A stretch of 49,320 nt of DNA from an uncultured Peptococcaceae bacterium (GTDB lineage: Bacteria; Bacillota; Peptococcia; Peptococcales; Peptococcaceae). Position 1 is the stretch's first letter; each line of letters starts with the position of its first letter. Location: contig CATJSX010000048.1 of NCBI GenBank assembly GCA_949743265.1, positions 1 through 49,320 of the forward strand, read 5' to 3'. The notes under the pieces are model-generated. The model was not told the DNA's origin. It saw nothing but the letters and a program-made list of their open reading frames with translations, and did no database searches. This document shows positions 11,457 through 49,320 of this stretch, in pieces. The position numbers and the translations under genes are program-made.

Positions 11457-11490
11457 TTGACGAAATTTTGACATTTACCCTATATGATGA
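11457..11490 (+). promoter_or_regulatory. Tandem TTGAC box, promoter of the response regulator/kinase operon (copy 1)
   Basis: TTGAC at 11457-11461 and again at 11468-11472, period 11 bases, followed by a TATATGAT -10-like sequence near 11481-11488. OmpR-type regulators bind direct repeats with this period. The 21-base block differs at only three positions from the block at 20288, upstream of the lipoprotein-ABC operon, so both are likely targets of one regulator, probably the one encoded here. Confidence 0.6.
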
Positions 11491-11510
11491 AAAAGACTGG
11501 AGGTGTTTGC

Positions 11511-12185
11511 ATGGTATATAGAATTTTAATTGTTGATGATGAACCTATCTTAACCGAATTGCTTTCATTTCATTTGCAGGATCACGGCTATACGGTTTTC
11601 GTTGCTAACAGCAGCGATGAAGCTCTGGCAAAGTTGAACAAAAAGCCAAATCTTATTCTTTTGGACATCAATATGCCGGGGATGGACGGACTGGAGCTGT
11701 GCAAGATTATTCGGAATCATATCGTTTGCCCCATCCTGTTCTTGACGGCGCGGATCACCGAGCAGGATAAGGTCAACGGCTTACGAGTCGGAGGGGACGA
11801 CTATATTACCAAGCCTTTCGGTTTGCAGGAATTGATTGCTCGTATTGAGGCGCATCTGCGTCGGGACGAACGGAACAACCGTCCTCCAGAGATCGTAACC
11901 TCCCAAGGACTGATTATCAACCTCTCCGATAGGAAAGTATTTTGGAATGAACAGGAGATTTCTTTTTCAAAAAGAGAATTTGATATCATTGAGTTTTTGT
12001 CTTCTAACCCAAATCAGGTTTTTGACAAAGAGCGTATCTATGAGGCGGTATGGGGCTATGATGCAGAGGGCGATAGTAATGTGATAAAGGAGCATATCCG
12101 CAAAATTCGTGTAAAGCTCATGCAGACCAGCGGCAGTGAGTACATTGAAACGATCTGGGGGATGGGCTATCGATGGAAAAAGTAA
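11511..12185 (+). CDS. OmpR/VanR-type response regulator
   Basis: A 224-residue DNA-binding response regulator. The receiver domain (about 1-120) has the acidic pair near residues 9-11, the phospho-accepting Asp52 in LILLDINMPGMDG, and the conserved Lys in ITKPFG. The C-terminal winged helix (about 130-224) ends in IETIWGMGYRWKK, typical of the OmpR family. The start at 11511 is chosen because GGAGGTG at 11499-11505 lies five bases upstream. The next gene, a kinase, overlaps by 13 bases. A tandem TTGAC box precedes it, suggesting autoregulation. The effector genes are probably the lipoprotein-ABC operon starting at 20348, which carries the same box. Confidence 0.93.
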   Translation: MVYRILIVDDEPILTELLSFHLQDHGYTVFVANSSDEALAKLNKKPNLILLDINMPGMDGLELCKIIRNHIVCPILFLTARITEQDKVNGLRVGGDDYITKPFGLQELIARIEAHLRRDERNNRPPEIVTSQGLIINLSDRKVFWNEQEISFSKREFDIIEFLSSNPNQVFDKERIYEAVWGYDAEGDSNVIKEHIRKIRVKLMQTSGSEYIETIWGMGYRWKK

Positions 12186-13459
12186 AAGGGCAGTCCTTGA
12201 AACGCTCCTTTATGGGGGCTGTGGCGATGACGATGCTGATCGTGTTCCTATGTAGCGCCCTTACAATTTTTATTTGCTACCGGTTCCAAAAGCATATTCT
12301 CCCCGATTCTAATGAGGTCTGGCTGACGCAGCGGACAACAGCGCCGGATGGCACAGTTACAGAAGTAAAGCAAAGATATTATCTTGCCCGACCTTCACCG
12401 TTCACCCGACTGGAGACTGACGGTCAGGAGCATGACGAGATGAGAGAAGAAACGAGTTACATTATAGAGCGCATTGAATCCAGCTATTCCATGCTTTCGT
12501 CACGAGCAAAGGCGGCCTACCGCGCTTCACAAATCTTTATGGTGCTGCTGCCACTCTTGTTTGTTGTGATTGGAATTACCCTATGCGCATGGTGGTTTTA
12601 TCATAAGATACTGGAACCGCCGATTATAGTTCTTATGAACGCCACAACGCACATCCAAGATCAGGATTTGAGCTTCCAGATCAGCTTTGACAGACAGGAT
12701 GAGCTGGGCCAGCTCTGCACTGCGTTTGAGAAAATGCGGCAGACCCTATATGAGAATAATCGCCAGTTATGGAGTATGCTGGAGGAACGTCGTGCGTTAC
12801 AGGCATCCGTGGCTCATGATCTGCGTAATCCCATCACTATCATAAAAGGCTATGTGGAATATTTGCAGGAGAATCGTCAAGGTGGGACTTTGACGGATGA
12901 AAAATTGGAAAAGGCGCTTTCCAATCTCGGCATTACCACAGAGCGTATGGGACGTTATACGGATACTATGCGTGACTTGGGGGCGATTGAAGAAACAGAG
13001 GTCCGCTACGCCGAGATAGAACTTCCTGTTTTTTTACAGCACATGGTGGATTCTTTATCAGTCCTGTTTCAGAACACCGGGGTGCGATTTTCTTGTAACT
13101 TCCATGTCCCAAAGGGAAAAGCTGTTTTTGATGGGGAACTGTTGTACCGAGTTTTGGAAAATTTGATCTCCAATGCTCTGCGTTTTGCGGAGCAACGAAT
13201 TGAGCTTGTCTTTTGTTTGGAACATGGAATCCTGTCAGCCACTGTGACAGACGAAGGACCGGGTTTTTCGGAAAAGCTGTTGCGAAAAAAAACGGCCTTG
13301 TTTTACTCCGAAGATACTTCTGGTAAGCATCTTGGCATGGGACTGGCTGTGAGTAGGGTGTTATGCCAAAAGCATGGAGGAACTATAGAGTTGGCAAACC
13401 AATCGTCCTGTGGAGCCTGTGTGAAAGCCTCCATTAAATTACAAGGAGAATTATTATGA
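12173..13459 (+). CDS. Sensor histidine kinase
   Basis: A 428-residue membrane kinase, partner of the overlapping response regulator. It has two membrane spans (about 15-37 and 120-142) flanking a short sensor loop of about 80 residues, then a HAMP-like linker and the phospho-accepting His215 in SVAHDLRNPITIIKGYVEYL. ATP-binding boxes are LENLISNALRFAE (N), DEGPGFSE (G1) and GMGLAVSRVLC (G2). The short extracytoplasmic loop is like that of kinases which sense through a partner transporter or lipoprotein rather than by binding a ligand directly; this is inference. The frame is intact up to the stop, with a ribosome site for a further gene just before it. Confidence 0.93.
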   Translation: MEKVKGQSLKRSFMGAVAMTMLIVFLCSALTIFICYRFQKHILPDSNEVWLTQRTTAPDGTVTEVKQRYYLARPSPFTRLETDGQEHDEMREETSYIIERIESSYSMLSSRAKAAYRASQIFMVLLPLLFVVIGITLCAWWFYHKILEPPIIVLMNATTHIQDQDLSFQISFDRQDELGQLCTAFEKMRQTLYENNRQLWSMLEERRALQASVAHDLRNPITIIKGYVEYLQENRQGGTLTDEKLEKALSNLGITTERMGRYTDTMRDLGAIEETEVRYAEIELPVFLQHMVDSLSVLFQNTGVRFSCNFHVPKGKAVFDGELLYRVLENLISNALRFAEQRIELVFCLEHGILSATVTDEGPGFSEKLLRKKTALFYSEDTSGKHLGMGLAVSRVLCQKHGGTIELANQSSCGACVKASIKLQGELL

Positions 13460-13578: not shown

Positions 13579-14132
13579 CATGATCGGCTTTTTAGCTTTG
13601 TGGTAGCTATTTTTGTCAAGCTCGCTCAGTACCCAAAAACGTAAAAGGATAGCTAGAATTTACCCCATAATAGACAACAATATGGATTGTCATGTTTTTT
13701 AATTCCCTTTTCGGAATTGTGTGCCCGCTGAGATTGGGTTAATAAATATGCGTTGCGAGCAGTAGGTAAATTTTTACAATCAAATAACTTCCAGTTTGCG
13801 AGGCTGTTAAGCCAATGAAAAATCAATATTATATACAATAATAATACTTTTAGAAAGACTTTGCTGAAGGTAGATGTAATGAACCTAGAATCGGGGTATG
13901 ACTACATGATGCACCACAGAATGTTGTGCCAGCAGGAAACAGGCTTAGCTGCTTTGCTTCAAGTTGAAAAAAAGATAAATTTGTCATAGATTGGAGAACA
14001 TAACGCAATGAAAAAATCATGCGAAGTATGGTGCTCAAATTTTATATGGTAGGAGCACTTTTCAAAAAGGGAGTTTTTTAATGATGACATGACTATTTCA
14101 CATCAACAAAAATACAATAGGAGATGATTTTT
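13579..14132. other. Gene-free stretch between kinase operon and immunity cluster
   Basis: AT-rich and full of stops. A possible 36-codon plus-strand frame at 13879-13989 has no clear ribosome site or family. No terminator of good quality, repeat or RNA gene is recognised. It is probably the junction zone between two separately acquired blocks. Confidence 0.4.
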
Positions 14133-15026
14133 ATGTTTGGATTCGGAAAAAAAGAAGTCAAAGCCATGGAGGAGCGGCTGGCTGATCTTCAGAGAAAAAA
14201 GGATTGGGCTGGGGTGTCCATGACCTATTACGAGCTGGGCGTGACCGCTATGGATGCGGGTGACCTACATAAGGCTCAGCTGTGGCTTCATCGGGCAGAT
14301 ACCATTTACAGCGCTGACGACAATATCTATGATAAGGTAGGAGAGAAAATTATGGACGATTGCTCCAGCCGCATTGGACGGCTGGAGAATGAGGAAGGGC
14401 TGTTTTACAATGCCGTTCTCGCCGAAATTGAAGCCAGAGCAGAAGAACTGAACGATCTACAAATCCGACTATGGGGTCTGTTGTCTATTGCCCGTCTGGT
14501 GCAGCTGGGGAAACAGCTGGCTAGGCTACCAGAGTGCGAGGTGCTGGGTCAACTGGACTGGGCGGTGGATCTGATATTTCACTCTCTCCAGATTTTACCT
14601 TCTCAAGAGGTCTACCAGCGCCTGATGGATATGTGCAACGCTCTCTATGAGCTCAACGGCAAGCCAATCTATTACAGTGGCGAGGTCGAGATCCTAGGCA
14701 GGGTCCCCTTCCAGTTGTTTGATCTGAACGGTCTGTTTGGAGTGGAACAGGAGCTGAACGGCTATATTGACAGCCATCTGCGGCTGCTGGCCGCCCTGAG
14801 TCAGGATGCGAAAGAACTGCCCGAGATCGAAAGTAGCATAGTGGGTTGTGCTCTGTTGCCTGACTACTACGTTCGCTCCAGCGCGGACAGACTGGAGAAT
14901 ATCCTTCAGATCAAAGCAGAGCTCCAACGTATTTGGAGCGACTATGATTTTGTACGCTCTGACCTCACATGGGAGAAGGCAGGGAAAAGAATTGCAGATT
15001 ATAAACGGTTAGATATTCTGGTCTGA
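14133..15026 (+). CDS. Conserved-looking soluble protein of unknown function, possible immunity protein
   Basis: A 297-residue acidic protein, beginning MFGFGKKEVKAMEERLADLQ. It has no signal peptide or membrane span. The first 150 residues are helical with TPR-like phrasing (YYELGVTAMDAGDLHKAQLW). No family is recognised. The start at 14133 has AGGAG nine bases upstream; a second ATG at 14124 overlaps that site. It is the first of a run of same-strand genes that includes DUF4303 and SMI1/KNR4 proteins, so a role as a toxin-neutralising protein is suggested by context only. GC-richer codon use than the chromosomal backbone points to transfer. Confidence 0.75.
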   Translation: MFGFGKKEVKAMEERLADLQRKKDWAGVSMTYYELGVTAMDAGDLHKAQLWLHRADTIYSADDNIYDKVGEKIMDDCSSRIGRLENEEGLFYNAVLAEIEARAEELNDLQIRLWGLLSIARLVQLGKQLARLPECEVLGQLDWAVDLIFHSLQILPSQEVYQRLMDMCNALYELNGKPIYYSGEVEILGRVPFQLFDLNGLFGVEQELNGYIDSHLRLLAALSQDAKELPEIESSIVGCALLPDYYVRSSADRLENILQIKAELQRIWSDYDFVRSDLTWEKAGKRIADYKRLDILV

Positions 15027-15102
15027 TGGCTTGCTATTCAGCTGGTGGGATAATACAAAGACGGTCCCACCTTTTAATAAAGAGAAAGGGGAACAAATAG
15101 AG

Positions 15103-15717
15103 ATGGAACAATTTTTTTTAAACCTACAACCTGCCATTGAGGAGGCCGTGCGGCACGCTATGGAGAAGATTCGCCAAGAGATTGGACAGGAGCATATTTA
15201 CAGCGCGGCGCTTGTTACCGACAGCGACTGCGTCACGCTTTTTCTGGCAGTGAACACCGAAGAGGCGCTAGCGAAGCGGGATAAAGCAGACCAGACGCTG
15301 GAGCGTCTGGCGGAACTGCGGAAATATTGGTCTGAAGAACTGGTGGACCGAGTAGCGGACGGATCATTCAGTTTGAGCCGCTATGTCCCCGACGAGTGGG
15401 GCTATTCCGATGGGGCAGACAGTGAACTGAATCGGATCAGTAATCAGCTTTATGACCAAGAGGAGAAGCTCTCCAATACGGATGACGATACCTATGATGA
15501 GGTTCATGAACAGTTTCAGGAGCGGTTTATAGAGACAGTGGCACTTGCCTTCGAGACGCTACAGGCAGAGGGTGTCTTTGGACCAGAGGTCATCTGCTTC
15601 ATCTCCATGTCTGATGATGACCGGACGCCAGCAATCGAGGATAGCTCTGCCCGGCGGCTCAACACCCCAGAGCAGTATGAGCGGTTCCAGATATGGACGG
15701 AATTATTTAACGGATAA
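15103..15717 (+). CDS. DUF4303 family protein, likely polymorphic-toxin immunity protein
   Basis: A 204-residue soluble acidic protein. The phrasing near the N-terminus (MEQFFLNLQPAIEEAVRHAM), the central SRYVPDEWGYSD and the late FGPEVICFISMSDDD fit the DUF4303 family, whose members often occur in immunity clusters of polymorphic toxin systems. The start at 15103 is used because GAAAGGGG lies about eleven bases upstream and upstream residues do not fit the family. There is no toxin gene beside it. Binding partner unknown. Confidence 0.75.
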   Translation: MEQFFLNLQPAIEEAVRHAMEKIRQEIGQEHIYSAALVTDSDCVTLFLAVNTEEALAKRDKADQTLERLAELRKYWSEELVDRVADGSFSLSRYVPDEWGYSDGADSELNRISNQLYDQEEKLSNTDDDTYDEVHEQFQERFIETVALAFETLQAEGVFGPEVICFISMSDDDRTPAIEDSSARRLNTPEQYERFQIWTELFNG

Positions 15718-15864
15718 GTGATTGGACAACAAAGGTGTCCACCTATGCGCAGAAAGCCACCTTGTCCCTGAGCTTTTGTAATGTATTTTAGCTACTCTAA
15801 ATCGGAATTAAGTGAGAGTGATATATACCAAATATATGAAATAATTTGAATGGAGAGTGTTACA

Positions 15865-16632
15865 ATGAGTGAGAAATGGTATCAGATTTCCCCTATTGAA
15901 CTGGTTCGATGGGCTGAACCCCTAGTATTTGATGAGGGAGAGGCTGAGGGCTTCCCCGAGGAGCTCATCGCGTCCTATGAGGCGGCAGCAGAGGTTCGCC
16001 TTCCTGCTGCTTTTCGCGACTATCTCCTCGCTTGCGGACAGGCCGATCTGAACAGCTCCCTGCATGAGATGTTCATTCCAGACAGGAACGCAGAACCCTT
16101 TCAACACCGTCTAACTTTTTCTTATGACTATATCAAGGGCGATTTGAAATGGTTCCGAGAAAAGGAGGAACAGGACTATGAGGAACTGGCACGACTGCGA
16201 GCCCTTCCACAGCAACGATGGAGTGAGATCACAGATAACTATCTGTTATTTTGGTGCGAGAATCAGGGCTGTTGGTATGCAGGTATCAAAGTGGAGGATC
16301 TGAGCCGACCAGATCCCGTGGTGTATTTCAATGATAAGGATGATATGTACCATTGGGTGCCATTTGCTGATTCTGTCCAATCTTTTCTGCTGTCCACCAT
16401 CCTTGAAAACATGGAGGAAGAACTTCATGTAGACGAGATTCGAAATCCCACCCAGATTCAAAAGCATCTGGCCGAAGGCGATGTGGATTTCCAGCGCTTG
16501 CAGGAACCATATCCCTTTTCTGGTGGACGCTTTGTCCACACCTGTCTGGATAGGGATGCCAATACTTTGTATGTCTATGGAGAACAAACCAAGGAGCGTC
16601 TAGCGTATTTGAAGATTATTCAGGTCGAGTAA
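15865..16632 (+). CDS. SMI1/KNR4 (SUKH) family protein
   Basis: A 255-residue soluble protein. The SUKH fold is suggested by the early EELIASYEAAAEVRLPAAFR, which is the family's helix and LP-x-x-(Y/F) motif, followed by YLLACGQ and later by YLLFWCENQGCWYAGIK and VYFNDKD. SUKH proteins are widespread immunity proteins against bacterial toxins. The start at 15865 has GGAGAG seven bases upstream. It is the first of two SUKH-type genes in this cluster, the other at 18289 being clearly more AT-rich, which suggests separate origins. Confidence 0.85.
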   Translation: MSEKWYQISPIELVRWAEPLVFDEGEAEGFPEELIASYEAAAEVRLPAAFRDYLLACGQADLNSSLHEMFIPDRNAEPFQHRLTFSYDYIKGDLKWFREKEEQDYEELARLRALPQQRWSEITDNYLLFWCENQGCWYAGIKVEDLSRPDPVVYFNDKDDMYHWVPFADSVQSFLLSTILENMEEELHVDEIRNPTQIQKHLAEGDVDFQRLQEPYPFSGGRFVHTCLDRDANTLYVYGEQTKERLAYLKIIQVE

Positions 16633-16678
16633 GAAATCGGATTGATTGCATTGAAAATCTGGATTTACTAAAGATATA

Positions 16679-16866
16679 TTGATTTGTATTCTACATGTCA
16701 CAACAACACAGGGAATTTGTGGTAATCCATCGATTCAAATTTTGATCTCATCGGACAGCATCTTGTTGACAGGAGCGGGATTTGAAGTGGAAGCCCTTTT
16801 AATGGCGATCCTTGGATATTTGTTCGTCTGTGGAATTGTTGTTTGGAGGAAAGGAGCAAATATAAA
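16679..16866 (+). pseudogene. Possible C-terminal fragment of a membrane protein
   Basis: The frame here contains a hydrophobic stretch, LLMAILGYLFVCGIVVW, followed by basic residues, as at the end of an integral membrane protein. There is no clear ribosome site. Because the next gene looks like only the ectodomain of a DUF1430-type membrane protein, this could be a leftover of a related permease. Weak evidence. Confidence 0.25.
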
Positions 16867-17712
16867 ATGAGAAAGATTTTGAAATGGGCAGCGTTATTAA
16901 CGGTGCTACTGGTATTTGCGGGCTGTGTCGGGAAAGAATCGTCAGAACCTAAGTGGGAAGAACCCCTTTATCGTGCGGTGGTCTACAACAGCGGGGAAGA
17001 TGAAAGCGATGCAAAATATTTGGAAATTGCACAGCGCAGTCAGAAGCTGCTGGCTGTGCTGGAGGAAAAAGCGGGAGCGTTTGTCATGGATGCATACAAT
17101 TATCAGACCATTGACGATGAGGGTACTCCCCTGTATACGATGAATAACCCACAGGTTCCAATCGAGATAGCTCCTGCAGGGATGTCCGTACAGGTGAGCC
17201 GGGAATATTTCAAATGGAATCCCATTGAAACAGCGGATGGGTTGGAGCTGGCAGAACAGATCGTGCAGGATGATTTAACACTGAATTTGCTGGTGCCAGA
17301 GCAGTACCGCGATATGGAGCAAGAAATATTGGCTGCATGGAGGGAATACTTCTATTTTGAAAAGGTAGAGGCCGAGAACGATTACAATGAATTGGCCAGA
17401 AAGGAAGAACGGCTGGACATCGCAGAAAATCAACTGACGGTGAACCTTATATATGTGAAGAATGGACAGCGATATTTTACTTATCGGAGCGACTGTGCAG
17501 TTTCTGACGGTAACTGGATTACTGATCCATTGGTGCAGATTTATACAGGGAACACTCATTGCAACTATGCTCATAGCTTTCTGACCCAGTGGACATATAT
17601 CCCATCTGAAGCAATTTCGCCAAAGAAGGCTTACGAAGAAATCGCTCCTTACATTTTGGAATGTGGCGCGCAGGAAAGCCTGAAAGAATTACGTCCTCTA
17701 CGGAATAAGTAA
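16867..17712 (+). CDS. Lipoprotein resembling the ectodomain of DUF1430 bacteriocin-associated membrane proteins
   Basis: A 281-residue exported lipoprotein with a clear signal peptide and lipobox LVFAGC (Cys20). The mature part carries LLVPEQYRDMEQEI, REYFYFEKVE, LTVNLIYVKNGQRYFTY and PLVQIYTGNT. In my memory of the DUF1430 family these phrases form the outer domain of a large FtsX-like permease linked to bacteriocin export or immunity. Here no transmembrane part follows, so the domain stands alone on a lipid anchor. The start has GGAGGAAAGGAG upstream. It may act as a decoy or an immunity lipoprotein, or as the partner of another permease. The family match is from memory and needs a profile search. 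Confidence 0.65.
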   Translation: MRKILKWAALLTVLLVFAGCVGKESSEPKWEEPLYRAVVYNSGEDESDAKYLEIAQRSQKLLAVLEEKAGAFVMDAYNYQTIDDEGTPLYTMNNPQVPIEIAPAGMSVQVSREYFKWNPIETADGLELAEQIVQDDLTLNLLVPEQYRDMEQEILAAWREYFYFEKVEAENDYNELARKEERLDIAENQLTVNLIYVKNGQRYFTYRSDCAVSDGNWITDPLVQIYTGNTHCNYAHSFLTQWTYIPSEAISPKKAYEEIAPYILECGAQESLKELRPLRNK

Positions 17713-17729
17713 GCTGGAATCATGCTTTT

Positions 17730-18218
17730 TTGAGAGATACACATCCTATTGATAGAAAGGCATGCTCTTCCCCCACTACAAATCCTGCTCCAGCGCATTC
17801 CAATGGGTTTGGTGCGGCGCTACTATTAGACTGGAGATTCGATACTATCACGAATCGCAGCTTGAAGTTGAAACAAGAACGGTTCGATTTAAATATACCT
17901 GTTTTGGTTATCAAGCAGCAAACTTTAAAAGATGTATTAGGCAAGTTTCCTGTTTGGTGGGGAACGGATCTCAAAGAAATATAGGATAATTTTATTTTTG
18001 TAATGCCCATTTCTACTGCTGAAAGCATCGCAGAAAAAATAGGAGAACCAATAAAAGAACCAGAACGGATATTTGTCTGTAAAAATGTTATTTTTTGCTC
18101 TTTTGATAGAGCGAAATATTCCAAAGCAAACTGGTGGAAGAAAACAGCCAGTGCAGGTATTGAAGAATTGCTTACAATCAGAACCGCTAATACATTAAGA
18201 AAAATCGTCGAAATGTAA
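17730..18218 (+). pseudogene. Broken gene with one in-frame stop, family unknown
   Basis: A single frame gives about 160 codons interrupted by TAG at 17982-17984. The two halves (…FPVWWGTDLKEI and DNFIFVMPISTAESIAEK…) read smoothly across the stop, and the second half contains ERIFVCKNVIFCSFD. No domain is recognised and no ribosome site is seen at the first ATG (17730), so the head may be missing too. It lies within the immunity-like cluster and is probably a dying member of it. A genuine two-gene arrangement is less likely because no ribosome site precedes the second half. Confidence 0.5.
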
Positions 18219-18288
18219 TCGTTGCTCAAATCCGATCTATCTTTCTGTTTTATGAACACTTCAGAAGATAAAAGGAGGTAATAGGTAT

Positions 18289-19065
18289 ATGGCTATAAAA
18301 TATAATCTGACACCAATAGAGGTTATAGAGCTGTTTGGGTATACCAAACCAATAGCAAAAGAAGCATTAGAATTATTTGAACAGGCTAATCATCTAAAGC
18401 TCCCCCAATTATTATTTGATTTTTTAAGCTTAGTAAGAAATGAAGAATTATTATCTACTGCAGATATTTGGGCAAATGGTGATTCTCTTCCTTATTTTTC
18501 CTATCAATATATTGAAGAGGGGATTGAGGATTGTAGGGAGGATTTTAATGATCCTGAGTTTTGCAAGGAAAATGATTTTTATCCATATTCAAAGATTCCA
18601 AAAGAAAAGTGGCCAGAATTAGTAGAAAACTATTTACAGATTGGTAGCGATTATGGAGCGGGAGTCGTATTCTATGGTATAAAGGAAAAGGAATTGGTGC
18701 TGGAAAATCCGCCTGTTTATATGTTACATGAAGCAGATGCATTAGCAGATTGGAAACTGATAGCAAATACATTGTCTGAGTATTTGATGTGTGTATTATT
18801 GGATGCTCTTACTGGGGCATCATATACAACAGCACAGCATGTATTAAATGAAAATGGATGGGCGTTTTATGAAGAAGAATATGCGAATAAAGAGGAAGCA
18901 AGAGAGAACTTGTCCAATAGAAAAATTGATTGGTCTATTATGGGAAAGAATATGACTTTTTATGGAGCAGCAGATTCTTTTTATCGATATTGTTTTGATG
19001 AAGAGGAAAAGATTTTTGTTATAGTTAAAAATGATACATCAATTATGCTTATAAAATCGAAATAG
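18289..19065 (+). CDS. SMI1/KNR4 (SUKH) family protein
   Basis: A 258-residue soluble acidic protein. The early LELFEQANHLKLPQLLFDFL is the SUKH helix and LP motif, and WPELVENYLQIGSDYGAGVVFYG fits the central sheet. A strong AAAAGGAGGT site lies upstream of the ATG at 18289. Codon use is far more AT-rich than in the flanking genes of the cluster, so this gene probably arrived from a different donor. It is a likely toxin-immunity protein, partner unknown. Confidence 0.85.
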   Translation: MAIKYNLTPIEVIELFGYTKPIAKEALELFEQANHLKLPQLLFDFLSLVRNEELLSTADIWANGDSLPYFSYQYIEEGIEDCREDFNDPEFCKENDFYPYSKIPKEKWPELVENYLQIGSDYGAGVVFYGIKEKELVLENPPVYMLHEADALADWKLIANTLSEYLMCVLLDALTGASYTTAQHVLNENGWAFYEEEYANKEEARENLSNRKIDWSIMGKNMTFYGAADSFYRYCFDEEEKIFVIVKNDTSIMLIKSK

Positions 19066-19110
19066 AGTATACTAAAATTGCCAGTAATTTTGTTAAGGAG
19101 ATATCTTTTT

Positions 19111-20196
19111 ATGCACAAAAAGCCATCTATGTCTCCAGTGGGCGAGGCGATCTTAGCTGGCGACCTTGAGGCCGTGCGCTGTATGGTGGAGGACGGAAGC
19201 CTGATTTTTAAGAAGGGCAAGGTCGTGGAACTGAGAAAGAATATTCCAACGGTCGTGCGATCAGGTAAAAAGGAAATAACCACCTACTCTGACGCCTTTG
19301 GTTTTGCCCTGGCGCATAACCAGACGGAAATTGCCAAAATATTGATCGACTATAATCTGGTGGACTTGGGGCCTAAAAGCGACGCCCTTTATATGACCAT
19401 TCGCTGGAAGAATTTTGCCCTGTTGGACTATATGCTGGACCATGGCGGGCAGTTTGGCAGGGAAGAACGGGATATTACCCGTTTGCTCCTCAATCTGTCG
19501 GATGTGTGGGGTGATAATTGTCCAGTGCTACTGGACCGGCTAAACCTGCCGATCAAGGAGCTGGGTGGGACAGCTCTTTGCCACGCTGCTAGTGATAACC
19601 ATCAGGCTGTCGTTACATATCTGCTGGGAGCAGGGGTGGATGTGAATAGCCAAAACGACGGTCAGGGTACACCAGTCCTGCGGGCAGCGGCTGAGGGACA
19701 TACGGAAATGGTGCGCTTTCTGGTAAAGCAGGGAGCGGATCTAACCATCACGGACGAGTATGGCTATCGACCTTATACCGCCGCCCGGGTCAATGGACAT
19801 ATGAAAACGGCAGAGTATATTCAATCCATAGAACCAGCAGTCACAGAGGCAGAGCAGGACGCACTATTCGAACAATACCATGTACCAGCGGAGATGCGAG
19901 ACTACTTCAAAACCGGCCAACTGCGGCTGGAATTCCCAGAGTGGGAGCAGCTCGGCTGGATCCAGCTCTTTGCCTATACCGATGTGGCAGAGATCCGCTA
20001 CCGGGAACAGCAACTTCTCTCTCTGGTGGAGGACAGCGAGGACTATGCGGTGATGCTCCTATGGGAACCGAAATCGAAGAAAGTTTGGTTCCTTGATATG
20101 GAGCATGACGTGTTTCATGCGGTTGCCGACTGGGAAACATTCATCAAGGCTCCAGGCTATTACACCAATCGGGCCGTTATGTGGGAATTTGATTGA
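19111..20196 (+). CDS. Ankyrin-repeat protein
   Basis: A 361-residue soluble protein. Ankyrin repeats are clearest at about residues 150-250: GGTALCHAASDNHQAVVTYL, LGAGVDVNSQNDGQGTPVLR, AAAEGHTEMVRFLVKQGADL and TITDEYGYRPYTAARVNGHM. The C-terminal 110 residues lack repeats and form a separate domain ending in a Trp-rich stretch. The start at 19111 has AAGGAGAT eight bases upstream. Ankyrin proteins mediate protein-protein contacts and are known among immunity proteins of polymorphic toxins; location in this cluster supports that reading. A strong terminator follows at 20250. Confidence 0.88.
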   Translation: MHKKPSMSPVGEAILAGDLEAVRCMVEDGSLIFKKGKVVELRKNIPTVVRSGKKEITTYSDAFGFALAHNQTEIAKILIDYNLVDLGPKSDALYMTIRWKNFALLDYMLDHGGQFGREERDITRLLLNLSDVWGDNCPVLLDRLNLPIKELGGTALCHAASDNHQAVVTYLLGAGVDVNSQNDGQGTPVLRAAAEGHTEMVRFLVKQGADLTITDEYGYRPYTAARVNGHMKTAEYIQSIEPAVTEAEQDALFEQYHVPAEMRDYFKTGQLRLEFPEWEQLGWIQLFAYTDVAEIRYREQQLLSLVEDSEDYAVMLLWEPKSKKVWFLDMEHDVFHAVADWETFIKAPGYYTNRAVMWEFD

Positions 20197-20347: not shown

Positions 20348-21382
20348 ATGCGAAAACGATTGACCGTTGTTTCTTTTGTGTGCGGTGCGCTGTTATCTGT
20401 CGCCGCCTGCGGGAACTATGCCATTCCAGATAACATACCCCCACCGTCACAGACCGCCGCCGTAAACCCCTTTGAGAAGGTAGAGGATGAGTCAGGATTT
20501 CTGGCTATGCTCACCCACGGAGTAGCCTCGCCTGATTTCTCCGAAAATGGAGAACGGTTGGCATTTCCCTATGACGGCGGCGAATTTCAGCTTAAGTATC
20601 AGTATTCCGTTACGGGCAAGCTGGATACCGTTGGCTTTCTCCTGTTCTTGGACGGCAGGCCGCAGCCATACAAGGTAGACGATACTGCATCAGAATATGC
20701 GTATTGCCATAGCTTTCCTGCAACGGAGGAACAGAACTTTTCGTTTCTTTTTGAGCCTGTGACCGGCAGCGCAGGCGATACGCTGACATTGACTATAGTA
20801 AGCATTACCAACCCAGATTTTCAACCAGATATGAAAACAACTTCTAGCTACGGATGGTATCATAAAACGTTGGATTCCTATGTCGAGCTGCGGTTCAATG
20901 CGAACGCTCCCGCCGTACATTTTGGCTATCCGTCTGTCCATGATGTCTTTTCACAGAATAAAGTGCGGGAGAAAAAGGTCACGGCCCAGTATGTGGACAT
21001 TGAACTTTCAAAGCACGGCTGGGGCGGTGTGAGCATGGACACGCTGGATCAGGGGGTCTACTACACTCTTTCCTATGATGGTAATATCATCTATGATAAT
21101 CTGTGCGTCTCCACACCAGTCACGTTGCGATATACGATGTGTGGCACTGCTGGAGCGAGCTACAATGTCTCGCTGTTCCTGAATCATCAGCCTGTGAAAA
21201 TTGGTGAGAACACATCCTGTTTCATGACATTGAGTAAGGGAGGCGTCGTGGAGTTTGAGGTCGTGATCAACCCAGACAAGTTAGAACAGCTTAATACCTT
21301 CTATTGTGTTGCTGTTCCTCAAGGCGAAACATCCACCCCTTTCTTTAAGAGTAATTCCATTTTATTGTATAAGGAGAATTGA
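20348..21382 (+). CDS. Lipoprotein of unknown function, first gene of the ABC operon
   Basis: A 344-residue lipoprotein with signal peptide and lipobox LSVAAC (Cys21). The mature part is rich in beta-strand phrasing (GGEFQLKYQYSVTGKLDTVG, VVEFEVVINPDKLEQ) and contains no transporter-solute-binding signature that I recognise. A GGAGG site precedes the ATG. It overlaps the next gene region by none but is only two bases away, so the genes are co-transcribed. It is likely to be surface-anchored and to work with the ABC subunits downstream, for example as a sensor or a shield. Family unknown. Confidence 0.8.
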   Translation: MRKRLTVVSFVCGALLSVAACGNYAIPDNIPPPSQTAAVNPFEKVEDESGFLAMLTHGVASPDFSENGERLAFPYDGGEFQLKYQYSVTGKLDTVGFLLFLDGRPQPYKVDDTASEYAYCHSFPATEEQNFSFLFEPVTGSAGDTLTLTIVSITNPDFQPDMKTTSSYGWYHKTLDSYVELRFNANAPAVHFGYPSVHDVFSQNKVREKKVTAQYVDIELSKHGWGGVSMDTLDQGVYYTLSYDGNIIYDNLCVSTPVTLRYTMCGTAGASYNVSLFLNHQPVKIGENTSCFMTLSKGGVVEFEVVINPDKLEQLNTFYCVAVPQGETSTPFFKSNSILLYKEN

Positions 21383-21384
21383 AC

Positions 21385-22560
21385 ATGAAAAAGATAATCT
21401 GTATCATGATGGCTCTATTTTTTATTCTGGCATTGTCTGCCTGCAACAAGATTGACACACTGGCGGGAGCAGAGGGAACTCCTTCCGATATGCTGAATAT
21501 CTCTGCGCCATCATCTGACAATCTGTCGGAGCAGACCGCTTCTCAGGCTGGAGCTTTTGCAAATTGCACCTTCAATCCCACTCTGTTTGGTGGAAAACTT
21601 CATAGCTGTGCCTATGCTGGAAATGGAACACTTCTTGTGCTGGCAGATAAGCTATACCTCTATGACACCGCCGCTGCCTCGGTGCTGGCTGTCACGGAAG
21701 CACCCCTACGTGATTTTGATGTGCAGATCATGAATGGTGGCTATCTTTTGTCCGGTATGGGTGATGATGGTATGATGGCGTACATCTATGACCACTCTCT
21801 TTCGTTGGATAAGGAAATTGTGGTTAATGAGCTTCTGGCGGGTGACTTTGTAGTCAGCGAAGCTGGCATTGCAGTCTCCACCGATGGAAAAAAGTTGGCG
21901 ATTGCCGCTATGAGCGGGCTGTATCTGTATGATCTGGAAAGCGAGAGCTTGACCACGCTCCTTGATTTGACCCAAAATGCGGGAACAGCCAATCTTGAGA
22001 TCGTAATGCTGAACGCTCTTGCGTTTGCTCGGGACAACAGCCAGCTCGTATTCTATGGCGATGGCATCTCTATTCCTGCGGTAAATGACGAGGACAGCTT
22101 TTCCATCTATGGAAGCATTGCCGTGGATGGCAGCAATCTGAAGCTCACAAAGCCGTTCAACTATGCTATGGAAGAAATGCAGAGCAGAGCCAATCGGTTG
22201 TTCTTCCCACAAATCTTTACGCAAAGCAATGGGTCGCTGCTCTGGATTAACCGACAAACAGGCTTCAGTAATATCCTTTCTTATGCAACCAGCGAGGAGG
22301 GCAGCAACGGTGTATATAGCTCAGAACAGGGAAATTATGTTGCAACCGCTGTTTTAGACGGTAAATTGACGGTTCGTGTTTATGATGTGGATTCGGGCGA
22401 ACTGATTGTCACTAAAGTGATTGAGGACTCCGATCCCATATATTTCAATCGTATTCCCATGATTTACCTTTTAGACGACGCAAAAACCGCTGTGGTGCTT
22501 CTTGGAGGCAGCATCCGCGAAATTGATACGCTGGTTTCGACCTTTGCGTTTGGAGCGTAA
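21385..22560 (+). CDS. Lipoprotein with beta-propeller-like repeats
   Basis: A 391-residue lipoprotein with lipobox LALSAC (Cys20). The mature part shows repeated strand patterns such as GTLLVLADKLYLYDTA, GKKLAIAAMSGLYLYDLES and LTVRVYDVDSGELIV that resemble WD40-type or YncE-like propeller blades. The start at 21385 has AAGGAG eight bases upstream; an in-frame TTG six bases earlier overlaps the previous stop. It is the second extracytoplasmic component of the operon. The propeller reading is inference from pattern; it could bind peptides or cell-wall fragments. Confidence 0.8.
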   Translation: MKKIICIMMALFFILALSACNKIDTLAGAEGTPSDMLNISAPSSDNLSEQTASQAGAFANCTFNPTLFGGKLHSCAYAGNGTLLVLADKLYLYDTAAASVLAVTEAPLRDFDVQIMNGGYLLSGMGDDGMMAYIYDHSLSLDKEIVVNELLAGDFVVSEAGIAVSTDGKKLAIAAMSGLYLYDLESESLTTLLDLTQNAGTANLEIVMLNALAFARDNSQLVFYGDGISIPAVNDEDSFSIYGSIAVDGSNLKLTKPFNYAMEEMQSRANRLFFPQIFTQSNGSLLWINRQTGFSNILSYATSEEGSNGVYSSEQGNYVATAVLDGKLTVRVYDVDSGELIVTKVIEDSDPIYFNRIPMIYLLDDAKTAVVLLGGSIREIDTLVSTFAFGA

Positions 22561-22561
22561 C

Positions 22562-23449
22562 ATGGAGATCACATTTGAAAGCGTATCAAAGCAATACAAA
22601 AATAAGTATGCGCTGAAAAATTTTACCGCCACACTGCATGAGGGTGTGTACGGCATGTTGGGTGAAAATGGGGCTGGAAAGACAACGCTCATCAATACCT
22701 TTGTGGGTATTTTGCGCGGTGATAGTGGCACGATCTGGGTGGACGGTCAGGACGTGAGGACTCTGGGCAAGGCGTTTCTGTCTCAAATCGGCTATATGCC
22801 CCAGTATCCTATTTTTTATCGAGATTTTACCGTAAAGGATTTTCTGCTCTATATGTGCGCTCTGAAAGACATTCCTACTCGCGAAGCGCAAGACCGTGTT
22901 TTGGAGCTGCTTGCCATGGTAAATTTGATAGGCGCACAGGACAAGAAAATCGGTGCGCTTTCTGGTGGTATGCGCCAGCGTGTCGGTATTGTACAGGCTA
23001 TGCTATCCGACCCGAAAATTCTGATTCTGGACGAGCCTACTGCTGGTCTCGACCCCAGCGAGCGAATACGGTTTCGGAACCTGATCTCCCGATTTGCCCA
23101 AGGACGGACGATCCTGTTGGCAACTCACATCGTTTCGGATGTGGAGTGTATCGCCCGTGAAATCCTGCTGCTGAAGCAGGGGACGCTACTCATGCAGGGA
23201 ACGCCCGCCGCGCTGGAGCGGAACATTGAGGGCAAGGTGTGGAACGTAACCGTCGAGACCGAGGAAGCTGCGTTGCTGACAGATATGTACTGTATCAGCA
23301 ACATGAAGCAGGATGGCAAACATTTTATACTGCGTATTGTTGAGGACGGATGTCCAATCAAGAACGCACAACCCGTTCATCCTAATATGGAAGATGTGTT
23401 CTTGTATTATTGCAAAGGAGAAGGCCATGACACATCTTATACGATATGA
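22562..23449 (+). CDS. ABC transporter ATP-binding protein
   Basis: A 295-residue ABC ATPase. Walker A GENGAGKTT, signature LSGGMRQRVGI, Walker B ILILDEPTAGLDP and the switch His in LLATHIVSD are all intact. The pattern is that of BcrA/CcmA-like subunits that pair with ABC-2 permeases. The start at 22562 has GGAG six bases upstream and lies one base after the preceding stop. The end overlaps the first permease gene by 23 bases. It powers the transport complex formed with the two following membrane proteins. Confidence 0.94.
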   Translation: MEITFESVSKQYKNKYALKNFTATLHEGVYGMLGENGAGKTTLINTFVGILRGDSGTIWVDGQDVRTLGKAFLSQIGYMPQYPIFYRDFTVKDFLLYMCALKDIPTREAQDRVLELLAMVNLIGAQDKKIGALSGGMRQRVGIVQAMLSDPKILILDEPTAGLDPSERIRFRNLISRFAQGRTILLATHIVSDVECIAREILLLKQGTLLMQGTPAALERNIEGKVWNVTVETEEAALLTDMYCISNMKQDGKHFILRIVEDGCPIKNAQPVHPNMEDVFLYYCKGEGHDTSYTI

Positions 23450-24647
23450 ATTTATCAAGCAGTTCTGTAAGCGTTCTATCCTAGCGCTTTTTATAGTGTT
23501 CAGCCTCGTCGACCTGTTCAAAATCTATGGTGAATACAAGTCTTATTCCTATTTGGCAGACGGAAATGGAGCGCGGAGCTGGCATACGCTTCATTGGCAG
23601 CTCTACAAAGAATACCATGGCGAGATTACCCCAGAGAAGATTGAACGTCTGCTTGCGGCCTACCAGCCTCTGCTGGAGGCCACATCAGATATGACTGCAA
23701 GTACAGCTACTGATGATCCCAACACTATGACCGGCAACCTATACAGCGACAGAAATCTGCTGGACAAGTATTTTGTGACGCCCATGCAGTATTTCTATGG
23801 GTACAGCAGTCAGGCAGAACAAGTGACCAATAAAGCGCGGCAAAACGCCACGCTCTATGCAGAACGGGGAGCGATCTATCAGCAAAGGGAGAGCGGCGCT
23901 ATTTATCATCTTTACGCCGGACGCACAATCCCCATTTTTGCCTACCAGGAAATGTGCAATTACTATCTGAACTATGATTTTTCCATCGTTTTGACCCTCA
24001 TGCTCTGCCTTTATGGAATCATTGGCACATTTGTAAGTGAAAAGGAAACGCAGATGGATATACTGCTGCTGGTAAGTCCTAATGGTGGCAGAAAAACCGC
24101 CATGGCAAAAATCCTTGCAGTCACCCTGTTTTTGTTTCTAACATCATTGTGGTTCTCCCTGCTTGACCTGATCGGCTTTGTGGCTTCATTCCAGACCTTG
24201 GAAGGGCTGACTCTACCGATATTTGCAATTCCGAACTTTGCTGAAAGCTCGGTCAATATCAGCATTTTTCAGTACGTTCTTCTGTCTGCGGCATTCAAAT
24301 GTACTGGTGTATGGGTGATCGGGATGCTCTGGTTGCTGGTTTCGATGTTCTGGGAAAATGCTTTGCTCCCCTTTGCGATCGACTTTGCTCTCTGTATGGC
24401 GCTGATTGTCAGCGGAGCTGCCTGCGCCTATTCCAATTTTTTCTGGACGAAGGTGCTGAACCCTTATACTCTGCTGATAAATCGCGTTCTTTTGGGCAAA
24501 ACGGAGTTTGTCAATATGGGGGGATTCCCCATCTTGACTTGGCAGGTCGCAGTAGGAATTTCTTTGACAGTGGGTCTTATGCTTGCCGCCGCAATTTATT
24601 TTCTGTCAGCGGAAAACTGTCACCACTGTGTCTGGAGGACAAAATGA
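23427..24647 (+). CDS. ABC-2 type permease
   Basis: A 406-residue membrane protein beginning MTHLIRYEFIKQFCKRSIL. There is one membrane span near the N-terminus, a soluble loop of about 150 residues rich in Tyr and Gln, then about five further spans in the second half. The E/R-containing segment FVSEKETQMDILLLVSPNGG is the usual coupling region of ABC-2 permeases (compare YSCQMDVLLRTT in the next protein). AAAGGAG sits six bases before the ATG. It overlaps the next gene by four bases (ATGA). Confidence 0.88.
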   Translation: MTHLIRYEFIKQFCKRSILALFIVFSLVDLFKIYGEYKSYSYLADGNGARSWHTLHWQLYKEYHGEITPEKIERLLAAYQPLLEATSDMTASTATDDPNTMTGNLYSDRNLLDKYFVTPMQYFYGYSSQAEQVTNKARQNATLYAERGAIYQQRESGAIYHLYAGRTIPIFAYQEMCNYYLNYDFSIVLTLMLCLYGIIGTFVSEKETQMDILLLVSPNGGRKTAMAKILAVTLFLFLTSLWFSLLDLIGFVASFQTLEGLTLPIFAIPNFAESSVNISIFQYVLLSAAFKCTGVWVIGMLWLLVSMFWENALLPFAIDFALCMALIVSGAACAYSNFFWTKVLNPYTLLINRVLLGKTEFVNMGGFPILTWQVAVGISLTVGLMLAAAIYFLSAENCHHCVWRTK

Positions 24648-26644
24648 GTGTTTTCTTTTATGAATGGAAAAAACTGATGATTTTACAACGGGGACTGTCT
24701 TATATGCTGGCTGCGCTCTTAGTCAGTATAGCTTGGTTGGCTGTAACCGACAAACCGCAGAACAGCGCAATGGAAGAATACTGCGACGAATACGAATGGT
24801 ATCTAAAATGGCTGGATGGGGCGTGTACAGAGGAAAAGGCCGGTTTGATGGAGCGGGAGATCCATGCCATTACAGAGGCTCGTTACATCCGCTCCCAGTT
24901 GCAGGAAAGCTATTACAGCAACCAGATCACAACGGAGCAGTATGAACAGCAGGTTGCGGAGCTTAACACTATATTGGCCCATGAGCATGGCTTTGAGATC
25001 GCATACCAGCAATATTTATATATCTGCGAAAATACAAATAACCGTTACTTTTTGAATACAAACGGCTGGGCTGGTCTGTTTGCCGCTCAAACGCTGGACT
25101 TCCCGCTGCTCCTTGTCATTTTGATTTTGGCAACCACGGTTTTTTGTTCGGAGTATAGCTGTCAGATGGACGTGCTTTTACGGACGACTGTACAAAGCCG
25201 CGAGAGTGCTAGGTGCAAAGTCATGATTACTCTCTGCGCCGTATTTATCCTCTGTATGGAACTGTCCCTGATCCACTTCGTGTTCTTTGCGGCGAAATAT
25301 GGCTTACCCCATGGAGAATATCCTTTCCAGAGTATTGCCTGTTTTGGGGGCAGTACCAAGAACCTCTCCTTACTGAAAGCGTATCTGCTTATGACTGCTC
25401 TGCGCTGTTTTGGTTCGGTGTTTCTCGCTGTTTTGCTACTTTTTACCTCTGTTCTGGTCAAGAAATATGCTTTGACGATGATGATCGGAGTGGCATTCAC
25501 CTTGATACCGTATATTGGTTTGCCCAAGCAAATGGATTACTGTTTGCCGCTACCGCTACCATTTCTGTTGGCAATCGGCTTTCTGGAGGGAACTTCTTCT
25601 GTTGAAGATTTACTGACGGGAGAAGTCATCGTTACATTTTCAGAGCGTTCCTTTCATGAGCTGTTGGTCTTGTTCAGCCTGTCCGCTATTTGTTGCGTCC
25701 TCATGGTATGGTGGGTACTGCGGCAAAACACAAACTGCTGGCAGTCTGGAAGAAAACCCGTCAGACAGCACAAAGCAGTCGCGTTGAGTCTGCTGCTTCT
25801 GCTCTCTCTGTCCGGCTGCTCTCTCGGAACCTCCGCAAACGGGATATTCAATTCATCTTCGCAAAGCGTGTCGGAAACTTACAACGCGATCTTCGACCAG
25901 CAGATGCGGACATATTCTCTGGAAAATCGAACAACTGGCACTTTAACGGACTTGGCACTCTCTCCGCTATTCGGGGCTTTTTCGGATGGGGAATCTATCA
26001 AGAACATTTATATGGATACCTCGTACATTTATTATATGGTCTCGCGCACAGAACAGTATGTTGATCGGGTTGGCAACTACAACAGCACATTTACCCAAGT
26101 GTTCATTGTACAGCTCAATATGGAAACCTTTGAGGAGCAGGTTGTTTTTGAGAAAATAACGGACAGTGGGCGCTCTATACTGGGAATTGATTATGCTGTA
26201 GGAGATACATGGATGTTTCTGCAATACTGCTATGGCTTTTTCCTAAATGATGAAAGTTTCTTTTTCATCACGAATGATGGGATTACGGAAGTGGGCAGAA
26301 CGATCCAGCGAACGCAAACGCTAGATATCCCTACCAAAGGAAATATTGCTTTTGACGGGCAAACGATCTATTTCATCAATGATAATTCTTTGTTGACAGC
26401 GTATGACACCAAGACCCACAAAGTTAGACCATTTCGGAATGTTGTTGCTTATGATTTCTGTCTGACCAGTCAGGGACTGTATTTTATTAACCGCATGGAT
26501 TTTGATTGTGTTTATCTATGCGGCAGGGATGGCGTTGGCAGTCTAAAAATTTCAAATGAGCCGGCCCTGTCTGTTGATTATGACGGTGAGAGAGTTACCA
26601 TGATCTCAAAAGCGGATGGGAGTGAAGTAGTTTGGGAGCCGTGA
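24644..26644 (+). CDS. ABC-2 type permease fused to a lipoprotein-like propeller domain
   Basis: A 666-residue protein. Residues 1 to about 368 form a permease much like its neighbour, with the coupling segment FCSEYSCQMDVLLRTT. Residues 371-392 then read as a full lipoprotein signal: basic n-region KPVRQHK, a run of Leu, and a lipobox LSGC with Cys392. The last 270 residues are a soluble domain with YDTK/ISLYFIN-type strands that looks like a propeller related to DUF5050-like proteins. No stop or credible internal start is seen at the joint, so the lipoprotein seems to have fused to the permease. Whether signal peptidase II cuts at Cys392 is open. It is the third extracytoplasmic module of this operon. 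Confidence 0.85.
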   Translation: MSVFFYEWKKLMILQRGLSYMLAALLVSIAWLAVTDKPQNSAMEEYCDEYEWYLKWLDGACTEEKAGLMEREIHAITEARYIRSQLQESYYSNQITTEQYEQQVAELNTILAHEHGFEIAYQQYLYICENTNNRYFLNTNGWAGLFAAQTLDFPLLLVILILATTVFCSEYSCQMDVLLRTTVQSRESARCKVMITLCAVFILCMELSLIHFVFFAAKYGLPHGEYPFQSIACFGGSTKNLSLLKAYLLMTALRCFGSVFLAVLLLFTSVLVKKYALTMMIGVAFTLIPYIGLPKQMDYCLPLPLPFLLAIGFLEGTSSVEDLLTGEVIVTFSERSFHELLVLFSLSAICCVLMVWWVLRQNTNCWQSGRKPVRQHKAVALSLLLLLSLSGCSLGTSANGIFNSSSQSVSETYNAIFDQQMRTYSLENRTTGTLTDLALSPLFGAFSDGESIKNIYMDTSYIYYMVSRTEQYVDRVGNYNSTFTQVFIVQLNMETFEEQVVFEKITDSGRSILGIDYAVGDTWMFLQYCYGFFLNDESFFFITNDGITEVGRTIQRTQTLDIPTKGNIAFDGQTIYFINDNSLLTAYDTKTHKVRPFRNVVAYDFCLTSQGLYFINRMDFDCVYLCGRDGVGSLKISNEPALSVDYDGERVTMISKADGSEVVWEP

Positions 26645-47244: not shown

Positions 47245-47907
47245 ATGACTACTATTCGTACCGATTACCAGCAGTATCTGCTGCAAAAAGCGCTTTCGTC
47301 AACTAATAATACTGAAACGACAAATAGCGGCGTTAGTTTTAACCAATTATTGAATGCGTCTCTTTATCCTACTATGCCGACGCAAGAAGAGAGCATCAGC
47401 CTTGATGATATTTTTCAACAAGCTGCGTTGACTTATAGCGTACCAGTTAGTTTGCTGAAAGCAGTTGCCAAGCAGGAATCCAATTTCAATCCTAACGCGG
47501 TATCTTCCGCTGGTGCGCAAGGAATTATGCAGTTGATGCCCAAAACAGCGGCAGCTTTAGGCGTGAGCGATTCTTTTGACGCTAAGGAAAATATTATGGG
47601 CGGCGCTAAATATTTGGCACAGATGCTGACACGTTTTGATAATAATGTTAAACTGGCTTTAGCGGCCTACAATGCTGGCGCTGGCAATGTTGAAAAATAT
47701 GGCGGTGTTCCGCCTTTTGCTGAAACGCAAAACTATGTCGAAAAGGTTCTTTCTTATCTGCAAGACGATCTTTCCGCTGGTTCTTATGTAGCAAAAGATC
47801 AAATGGATTTAAGTGAATTGACCAGCGATTTTTCCTACGATGATTATTTGCTCTTTATTCAGTTAATTAACGCTTGGCTTGACAGTTCGCGTTCATATAT
47901 ATTATAA
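47245..47907 (+). CDS. Lytic transglycosylase (SLT domain)
   Basis: A 220-residue protein. The SLT domain covers about 55-175: catalytic Glu78 in AVAKQESNFNPNAVSSAGAQ, then GIMQLMPKTAAALGV and LAAYNAGAGNVEKYGGVPPF. It cleaves the glycan strand of peptidoglycan. There is no signal peptide, as in YjbJ/CwlQ-type enzymes, so export by another route or with the flagellar machinery is possible. GGGGAGGA precedes the ATG. The gene follows the YjfB-like gene, with a structured leader between them. Confidence 0.92.
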   Translation: MTTIRTDYQQYLLQKALSSTNNTETTNSGVSFNQLLNASLYPTMPTQEESISLDDIFQQAALTYSVPVSLLKAVAKQESNFNPNAVSSAGAQGIMQLMPKTAAALGVSDSFDAKENIMGGAKYLAQMLTRFDNNVKLALAAYNAGAGNVEKYGGVPPFAETQNYVEKVLSYLQDDLSAGSYVAKDQMDLSELTSDFSYDDYLLFIQLINAWLDSSRSYIL

Positions 47908-47964
47908 AACAACGGCAATTCCCTAAAAGGCGCACGCCCATAAGGAAGTTGTATTACCGAAGGG

Positions 47965-47988
47965 CGGCATAGTCAAAAGGCTATGCCG
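47965..47988. terminator. Hairpin between transglycosylase and recombinase
   Basis: Arms CGGCATAG (47965-47972) and CTATGCCG (47981-47988), eight-base loop, with a T-rich run (CTTTTTCTTT) on the plus side. It can end the transglycosylase transcript; the recombinase stop codon lies in the second arm. Confidence 0.5.
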
Positions 47989-49320
47989 TTCTGCTTTTTC
48001 TTTGCCGTTCAATGGTCTGCTTGTCCTCGTCCTGTTCCAGTTCCCCGATAAAGTTCCAGACAATTTCAATCCTCTGTCTGCGGTGTCCACTGGATTTGTC
48101 CGGCGCGTGGACAATGATTTTTTTTACAAACTCATTGACGATAGTAGGCGTTAATTTCCGTATTCCCACATACTTGCGGATAACGGCGGCGAAGCTGTCA
48201 AAATCCGTCCTGTCCTGTTCGTAGGTATCAACGGCGGATTGTTCTGCATTGACCAATTCTGTCAGTTCCTTTTGTTCCGCTTCATACTCGGCGGACAGTT
48301 TCAAAAATCTTTCGTGGCTGATTGTACCGTTAATGTCGTCCTCGTAAATCCGCTTAAAAATATGGTCAAGCTCGGCAATCCGTTTTCTTGCCTGTTGTAA
48401 TTCTTTCTTTTGCCGCTTTACTGCTTTTTCTGCTTCTTCAAACCTCTGCTGATAAACCATGTTTTGAAAACTCTGTATATCGTCAAAAAACATAGCCGTC
48501 ACATCAAATATCCTTTGCAGGACAAACAGCTTTAACGTTTCTTCACGGATATAGTGCATAGTACAATCGCCGGTATTACTTTTGTACTTTGAGCAACGGT
48601 AACAGTCTTGTTCTGGCATCATGTTCTTACCCGTTGCAAAGTGAAGTTTGCTTCCGCAATCGGCACAATACAACAAGCCAGAAAACAGACCTTGACGTTC
48701 AGCCTGCTTTGCGGGGGCGGCGTTTGTTTGCTCTTAATTCCTGCACCCTCTCAAATACCTGTTCCTCGATAATGGCAGGTTGGGTATTGAGGAAAATCCG
48801 TTGATTTTCGGGCGCATTTTGCAGACGCTTTTTCAGTTTGTGGGATTTGGAATAGGTCTTGAAATTGACCATACAGCCCGTATATTCCGGGCGTTCCAAT
48901 ATCCCCCGTATGCTCTCCACAGACCAACGATAAGGATTGTCAGGCATAGTTCTTCCATTCTGCTTTGCATAGTGGGCTTTGACCGTTAAAACCTTATCTG
49001 CCGTCAGCATTTTTGCTATCTGCATTGGTCCTTTTCCTGCAATGCACAAGTCAAAAATCCTCTTTACAACCTCGGCGGCTTCTTCGTCCACAATCCATTT
49101 CTTTTTGTCTGCCGGGTCTTTCCTGTACCCATAGGGCGGATTGGTACAGAGGTGTTCCCCTGCATTACCCTTTGACCGCATGACCGCGCGAATTTTTTTG
49201 CTTGTACCTCGTGCATAAAAGTCGTTAAAAATGTTACGCAAGGGCGCAAAATCATTCTCGCCCTGTGCGCTGTCTACGCCGTCATTGATTGCAATGAAGC
49301 GGACGCCGTTCTGTGGGAAA
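47981..49320 (-). pseudogene. Large serine recombinase of an integrative element, one frameshift, 5' end outside window
   Basis: The frames together give a typical large serine recombinase: FPQNGVRFIAINDGVDSAQG at the window edge, then TSKKIRAVMRSKG and NPPYGYRKDP (recombinase domain), IRGILERPEYTGCMVNFKTY, and in the other frame GLFSGLLYCADCGSKLHFAT (zinc ribbon), followed by a long coiled coil and IVNEFVKKIIVHAP. The frame changes at a run of five G (48713-48717). Removing one base restores KRRPAKQAERQGLFSGLLY, as in relatives. It may be a real frameshift, a slippage site or a sequencing error. It marks the left end of an element extending beyond the window. Confidence 0.88.

Follow-up and report, generated by a model that had tools for sequence, protein, structure and literature searches.

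In lantibiotic immunity, LanFEG and LanI occur with LanRK, so that one system combines an ATPase and two permeases with lipoproteins and two-component regulation. The rhizobial FbcH cytochrome b/c1 precursor consists of a polytopic membrane protein and, in the same frame behind it, an exported protein; the two are separated by a cut at an internal signal. In the importers GlnPQ (PMC8025302) and OpuA (PMC11065425), substrate-binding domains are fused into the transporter chain and are understood to stay attached. Bacterial lipoproteins, finally, are made by Lgt and LspA and depend on a lipobox and its cleavage (PMC6952399, PMC9360617).

We analyzed a window of 49,320 nucleotides (the whole stretch of DNA under study), in which the gene P2 encodes a permease and a predicted lipoprotein in one chain. 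As in the lipoproteins processed by Lgt and LspA, a basic n-region, an h-region of the same length and an L-S-G-C box are present in P2, a putatively exported domain stands behind a variable tether, and the genome contains lgt and lsp. However, the signal in P2 comes after about 370 residues and six predicted spans, while theirs is N-terminal. With GlnPQ and OpuA, P2 shares the combination of an extracytoplasmic domain, a predicted one in P2, and a transporter membrane domain in one chain of Gram-positive bacteria, but its permease is ABC-2-like, its additional domain is a propeller and a lipobox marks the joint. P2 also falls outside this kind of importer in that the domain has a propeller-like fold and not that of a solute-binding protein, and in that the associated ATPase is closest to the exporter-type GldA/DrrA models. 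FbcH may be the nearest known case; it is cut in the manner of signal peptidase I, whereas the motif in P2 is that of signal peptidase II and lipid attachment. The surrounding module resembles LanFEG/LanI/LanRK in its ATPase, two permeases, lipoproteins and two-component system and differs from LanFEG/LanI in its longer permeases, its propeller lipoproteins and the internal lipobox. No lantibiotic genes were noticed with the module.

Organization of the locus

The operon comprises LpA, LpB, an ABC ATPase, the permease P1 and the P2 fusion (Table 1), an order common to the close homologs and the loci L056-L060. An earlier note on this DNA had described two lipoproteins at the head of the operon, one of them propeller-like; both lipoproteins are present, while the propeller likeness of the second comes down to sub-threshold matches. 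The ATPase was closest to the GldA, DrrA and lantibiotic-protection models of NCBIfam, all with scores below the cut-offs (158 bits versus a cut-off of 310 for TIGR03740), and for the operon PADLOC returned only generic ATPase matches. In many loci, L056 and L057 among them, a response regulator and a histidine kinase are encoded directly upstream of the operon. In the window, about 7 kb of other genes lie between this pair (11484-13459) and LpA.

Table 1. Features of the P2 locus, in window coordinates
Feature	Position	Strand	Evidence
Response regulator of the module	11484-12185	+	92% identical to the response regulator preceding LpA in locus L009; Pfam on the L009 copy
Histidine kinase of the module	12173-13459	+	80% identical to the kinase directly preceding LpA in L009
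LpA, N-terminal lipoprotein	20348-21382	+	LSVAAC lipobox; conserved in relatives
LpB, N-terminal lipoprotein	21379-22560	+	LALSAC lipobox; weak propeller matches, Pfam sub-threshold
ABC ATPase (GldA/DrrA/lantibiotic-protection-like)	22562-23449	+	PF00005, 7.9e-31
P1, paralogous unfused permease	23427-24647	+	Hydropathy; alignment with P2
Shine-Dalgarno GGAGG of P2	24634-24638	+	Sequence
P2, permease-lipoprotein fusion gene, 666 aa	24644-26644	+	Open frame; single ORF of the same length in close homologs
P2 residues 1-371, six-span ABC-2-like permease	24644-25756	+	Hydropathy; aligns with P1 and with unfused permeases ending here
Internal lipoprotein signal of P2 (basic n-region K371-K377, 14-residue h-region, L-S-G)	25754-25816	+	
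Lipobox Leu389-Ser390-Gly391-Cys392	25808-25819	+	No other lipobox match in P2; Cys shared by all 12 lineages
Predicted mature lipoprotein Cys392-Pro666, DUF5050-like beta-propeller	25817-26641	+	Pfam of family members; AF2 domain model; Foldseek

The genes between the two-component system and the operon form a block (14124-20193) that is absent from this position in many homologous loci. It encodes a SUKH-1 (SMI1_KNR4) protein (18289-19062) and a similar-looking one (15850-16629), an ankyrin protein (19111-20193) and a lipoprotein (16867-17709), and looks like an inserted cassette of the immunity type. On the minus strand, two adjoining fragments related to large serine recombinases (47873-49319; 43% and 32% identity) reach the end of the contig and possibly represent a broken or frameshifted copy. 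Variation was also observed among the lipoprotein genes of other loci: LpB is duplicated in tandem in L020 (3569-5911) and L097 (9091-11362), and LpA and LpB are one gene in L057 (3760-5883), L058 (13063-15159), L059 (13305-15398) and L062 (3788-5896). Since the latter two genes are also joined in these four loci, this operon family fuses its parts repeatedly.

P2 is a conserved gene fusion

The P2 frame contains no internal stop over its 666 codons (24644-26641), and its ATG overlaps the stop codon of the upstream P1 gene (ATGA). Hydropathy analysis revealed six spans, the last ending at residue 361 and the first two separated by a long loop, which agrees with the complete permease that the earlier note had placed ahead of the signal. 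The six spans, together with the adjoining PF00005 ATPase and paralogous permease, are the features by which P2 was regarded as an ABC-2 permease; searches of Pfam and NCBIfam yielded no permease family match for either P1 or P2. The predicted topology rests on hydropathy because the AF2 model of full-length P2 was poor (pLDDT 47.6).

A scan of genome contigs identified 33 loci with close P2 homologs, the full-length ones being 76-80% identical, mostly in mouse-gut Oscillospiraceae and Lachnospiraceae, isolates included. All complete close homologs are a single, stop-free frame, and in 15 of the genomes checked one fusion each was found. Profile searches of wider groups added more distant fusions with 19-33% identity to P2 of the window (alignment A3), and clustering at 60% identity resulted in 12 representatives, i.e. 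the lineage of the window and 11 further lineages. Copies that look broken are a minority: in G258 the fusion (L060:10989-12706) changes frame close to the propeller and so occupies two frames, probably as the result of a frameshift, and a match in G272 was reported with an in-profile TAA close to its end. The odd arrangement is all that would speak for an artefact, whether a sequencing or assembly error that joined two genes or a decaying pseudogene, and we give this explanation virtually no weight, as separate assemblies of dozens of genomes, some of them from isolates, contain the same fusion, for the most part with no internal stop. The permease-lipoprotein arrangement, present as the same single ORF in more than 30 close loci and 11 further lineages, is a true gene fusion, as had been suggested, and the dozens of independent genomes exclude a stop or frameshift at the joint.

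Where P2 continues, P1 and the unfused relatives found in L092, L094 and L095 come to an end, their last residues being a basic tail shortly past span 6. A downstream lipoprotein gene that lost its start and a permease gene that lost its stop would give P2. The exact split pair, the same permease and the same propeller as two genes, which the earlier note had proposed to look for, was not found among the homologous loci; the nearest arrangements were an unfused permease whose neighbours are two separately encoded, propeller-like lipoproteins (L092) and a stand-alone lipoprotein that matches weakly (L061). Frames of about 790-870 codons encoding two such permeases in tandem and no lipoprotein part were observed in L133, L134, L135, L137 and L145.

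Among 150 relatives of the genome containing the window, one distant permease match was found and the fusion was present in none. Serine recombinases are encoded close to the module in some loci. Taken together, the absence from relatives and these recombinases make spread of the module by horizontal transfer likely. A search of plasmids for the fusion gave no match, and a search of viral contigs gave one partial match.

A lipoprotein signal at the joint

Downstream of the six permease segments, the hydropathy profile of P2 exhibits an isolated short hydrophobic segment at about residues 378-392. With [LVI]-[ASTVI]-[GAS]-C behind a hydrophobic stretch as the criterion for Lgt/Lsp substrates, a PROSITE-style lipobox pattern matched the 666 residues once (382-392), as did the G+LPP core (377-392, KAVALSLLLLLSLSGC), and the predicted cut site lies between residues 391 and 392. 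This bears out the earlier description of a full lipoprotein signal at residues 371-392 of one open frame. The Leu run ending in LSGC is likewise present, although the hydrophobic core is just 14 residues long. Beginning at residue 371, the signal is located away from the N-terminus of the chain. The genome of the window (G000) encodes both Lsp (PF01252, 3.7e-41) and Lgt (PF01790, 4.4e-81).

The last charged residue precedes the Cys by 12-17 residues in each of the 12 representatives (mean of 15.0, s.d. 1.5), and by 15.7 (s.d. 1.2) in 64 N-terminal lipoproteins from the same loci; the latter were picked by a similar pattern, so that the gap figures are partly shaped by it and constitute agreement rather than a test. 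Among 188 polytopic ORFs of the examined loci, P2 family included, there were 42 internal lipobox matches with at least 120 residues behind them. All except one of these (41) belonged to the P2 fusion family, the remaining one being situated between spans of a tandem permease. Given this concentration in the family and the invariance of the Cys across 12 lineages, the internal lipobox of P2 is not a chance match.

Over the 12 representatives, eight columns were invariant, comprising E, K, G, K, G, P and G of the permease as well as the Cys that ends the short segment; this "invariant" Cys carries a three-residue local alignment ambiguity at L062/L055, where the box is the non-consensus CTAC (Cys at -3) and the aligner placed the neighbouring Cys in the invariant column. 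The joint Cys is the sole fully conserved cysteine of the protein across the representatives, while the residues flanking it drift. The four letters ending at this Cys were LSGC, LAGC, LSSC, LSAC, LGGC, LTGC, FSSC and CTAC, the last two in one lineage each, with G, S or A at position -1 in every lineage examined and, in most, Leu at -3. Of the 32 invariant columns in the narrower alignment A3, none but Cys392 falls between Arg370 and Ser404. A disulfide role for Cys392 was considered and rejected because no other cysteine is invariant, either in A3 or over the 12 representatives.

The 22 close homologs exhibit the same pattern at shorter range. Pairwise amino-acid difference averaged 0.110 for residues 1-360 and 0.389 for the signal core (372-388), about 3.5 times the permease rate, versus 0 for S390, G391, C392 and S393; Leu389 varies to Met only, and the 19 residues after S393 differ by 0.188. 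In the full set of close homologs, the box of L019 is LSSC. A fast n- and h-region, a frozen box and a loose tether form the pattern of a lipoprotein signal, and an ordinary span would have no reason to freeze its outer Cys only.

These observations bear directly on the main alternative, in which hydrophobic segment seven serves as a normal membrane anchor, stays uncleaved and holds the propeller covalently as a sensor or capture domain. The Gram-positive importers GlnPQ (PMC8025302) and OpuA (PMC11065425) do provide examples of transporter membrane domains with a fused binding domain. However, the segment is short for a stable span in all lineages at its 12-17 residues, and the helix drifts whereas the Cys and the small residue beside it are retained, two residues that a plain anchor does not need. 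We consider this explanation unlikely. An ordinary last membrane span, which had been named as the finding that would overturn the proposal, does not fit a Leu run that is too short, evolves fast and retains its Cys across about 20-35% identity.

A Cys that is lipidated but uncut, leaving a doubly anchored permease-propeller, appears less probable still. The internal position could conceivably block Lsp more than Lgt, but Gly, Ser or Ala at position -1, important for cutting, is kept in every lineage, and lsp is present in the genome.

The lipoprotein could also, or only, be produced from an internal translation start, yielding two proteins with no cleavage. Scattered start codons do occur near the joint, e.g. 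ATG in L056 and L049 and also in L115, there together with a purine-rich site. Yet neither the 22 close homologs nor the 12 representatives of the distant ones have a start codon or a ribosome site in common at the joint. Codon 373 encodes Val or Ile in the close homologs (GTC/GTA/GTT/ATC) and is GTC (Val) in P2 of the window, where the joint has no start codon; the sole start-type codon nearby is TTG381, and the resulting signal would be devoid of a basic n-region. This route is very improbable.

The C-terminal domain

Residues 393-666 of P2 are beta-rich. DUF5050 (PF16472) was matched by 8 of 11 family members (best 6.1e-11), the member in the window giving no match. The AF2 model of the domain alone had a pLDDT of 66 with C-terminal blocks mostly above 90, and the Foldseek hits of this model against the PDB were mostly propellers, including the seven-bladed 3s25; since TM-scores were low (0.2-0.4), only the fold class of the domain is supported. 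The earlier assignment as propeller-like holds at this level. A comparison by hhalign did not link the domain to LpB by common origin (probability 2.5%).

Proposed processing and function

Release by cleavage at the internal lipobox, first raised by the earlier note, is the best reading of the sequence evidence. We consider it probable that P2 is a natural polyprotein that is lipidated and cleaved at its internal signal to give a permease and a separate propeller lipoprotein. With slightly less assurance, it also seems likely that P2 represents a conserved family of such polyproteins, each translated as a single product from which Lgt and Lsp, working at a signal downstream of six permease spans, would generate a transporter subunit along with the lipoprotein that partners it. 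The same note had the domain tied to the transporter, whereas a working signal would leave it cut free and held by its lipid only. Tethering and release exclude each other, and the evidence favours release. The known substrates of Lgt and Lsp, to our knowledge, carry their signal at the N-terminus, which speaks against cleavage of P2; the substrates described in structural studies are likewise of this N-terminal kind.

In the proposed sequence of events, the ribosome would make the P2 permease and the third lipoprotein of the operon in one chain. The basic stretch 360-377, past span 6, would stay cytoplasmic and the 14-residue h-region would insert N-in/C-out as a signal, so that the C-terminal domain is exported. 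Provided that the six-span model holds, this is the orientation that Lgt and Lsp require. Lgt would then add diacylglycerol to Cys392 and Lsp would cut between Gly391 and Cys392. The products would be a permease consisting of spans 1-6 and a signal stub as well as a separate lipid-anchored propeller, synthesized at a fixed ratio of 1:1.

An exporter of the ABC-2 type is probably assembled from the ATPase, P1 and P2 and regulated by the linked two-component system, and LpA, LpB and the released propeller would be its partners at the outer face. Our guess is that the module could be an inducible exporter or an envelope-protection system.

Internal cleavage would be an unusual way of making a lipoprotein; we found no open-access paper on an internal lipobox or on signal peptidase II with internal signal peptides, and hence no precedent there. 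Processing of the internal signal would mean that Lgt and Lsp need no free N-terminus, and P2 would be a natural substrate for asking how LspA handles a signal within a larger membrane protein. Lipoproteins hidden inside polytopic proteins would then be missed by predictors that consider the N-terminus only, and lipoproteome counts would be too low. For the bacteria that carry the module, the fusion would offer a simple route to equal amounts of a transporter and its surface partner.
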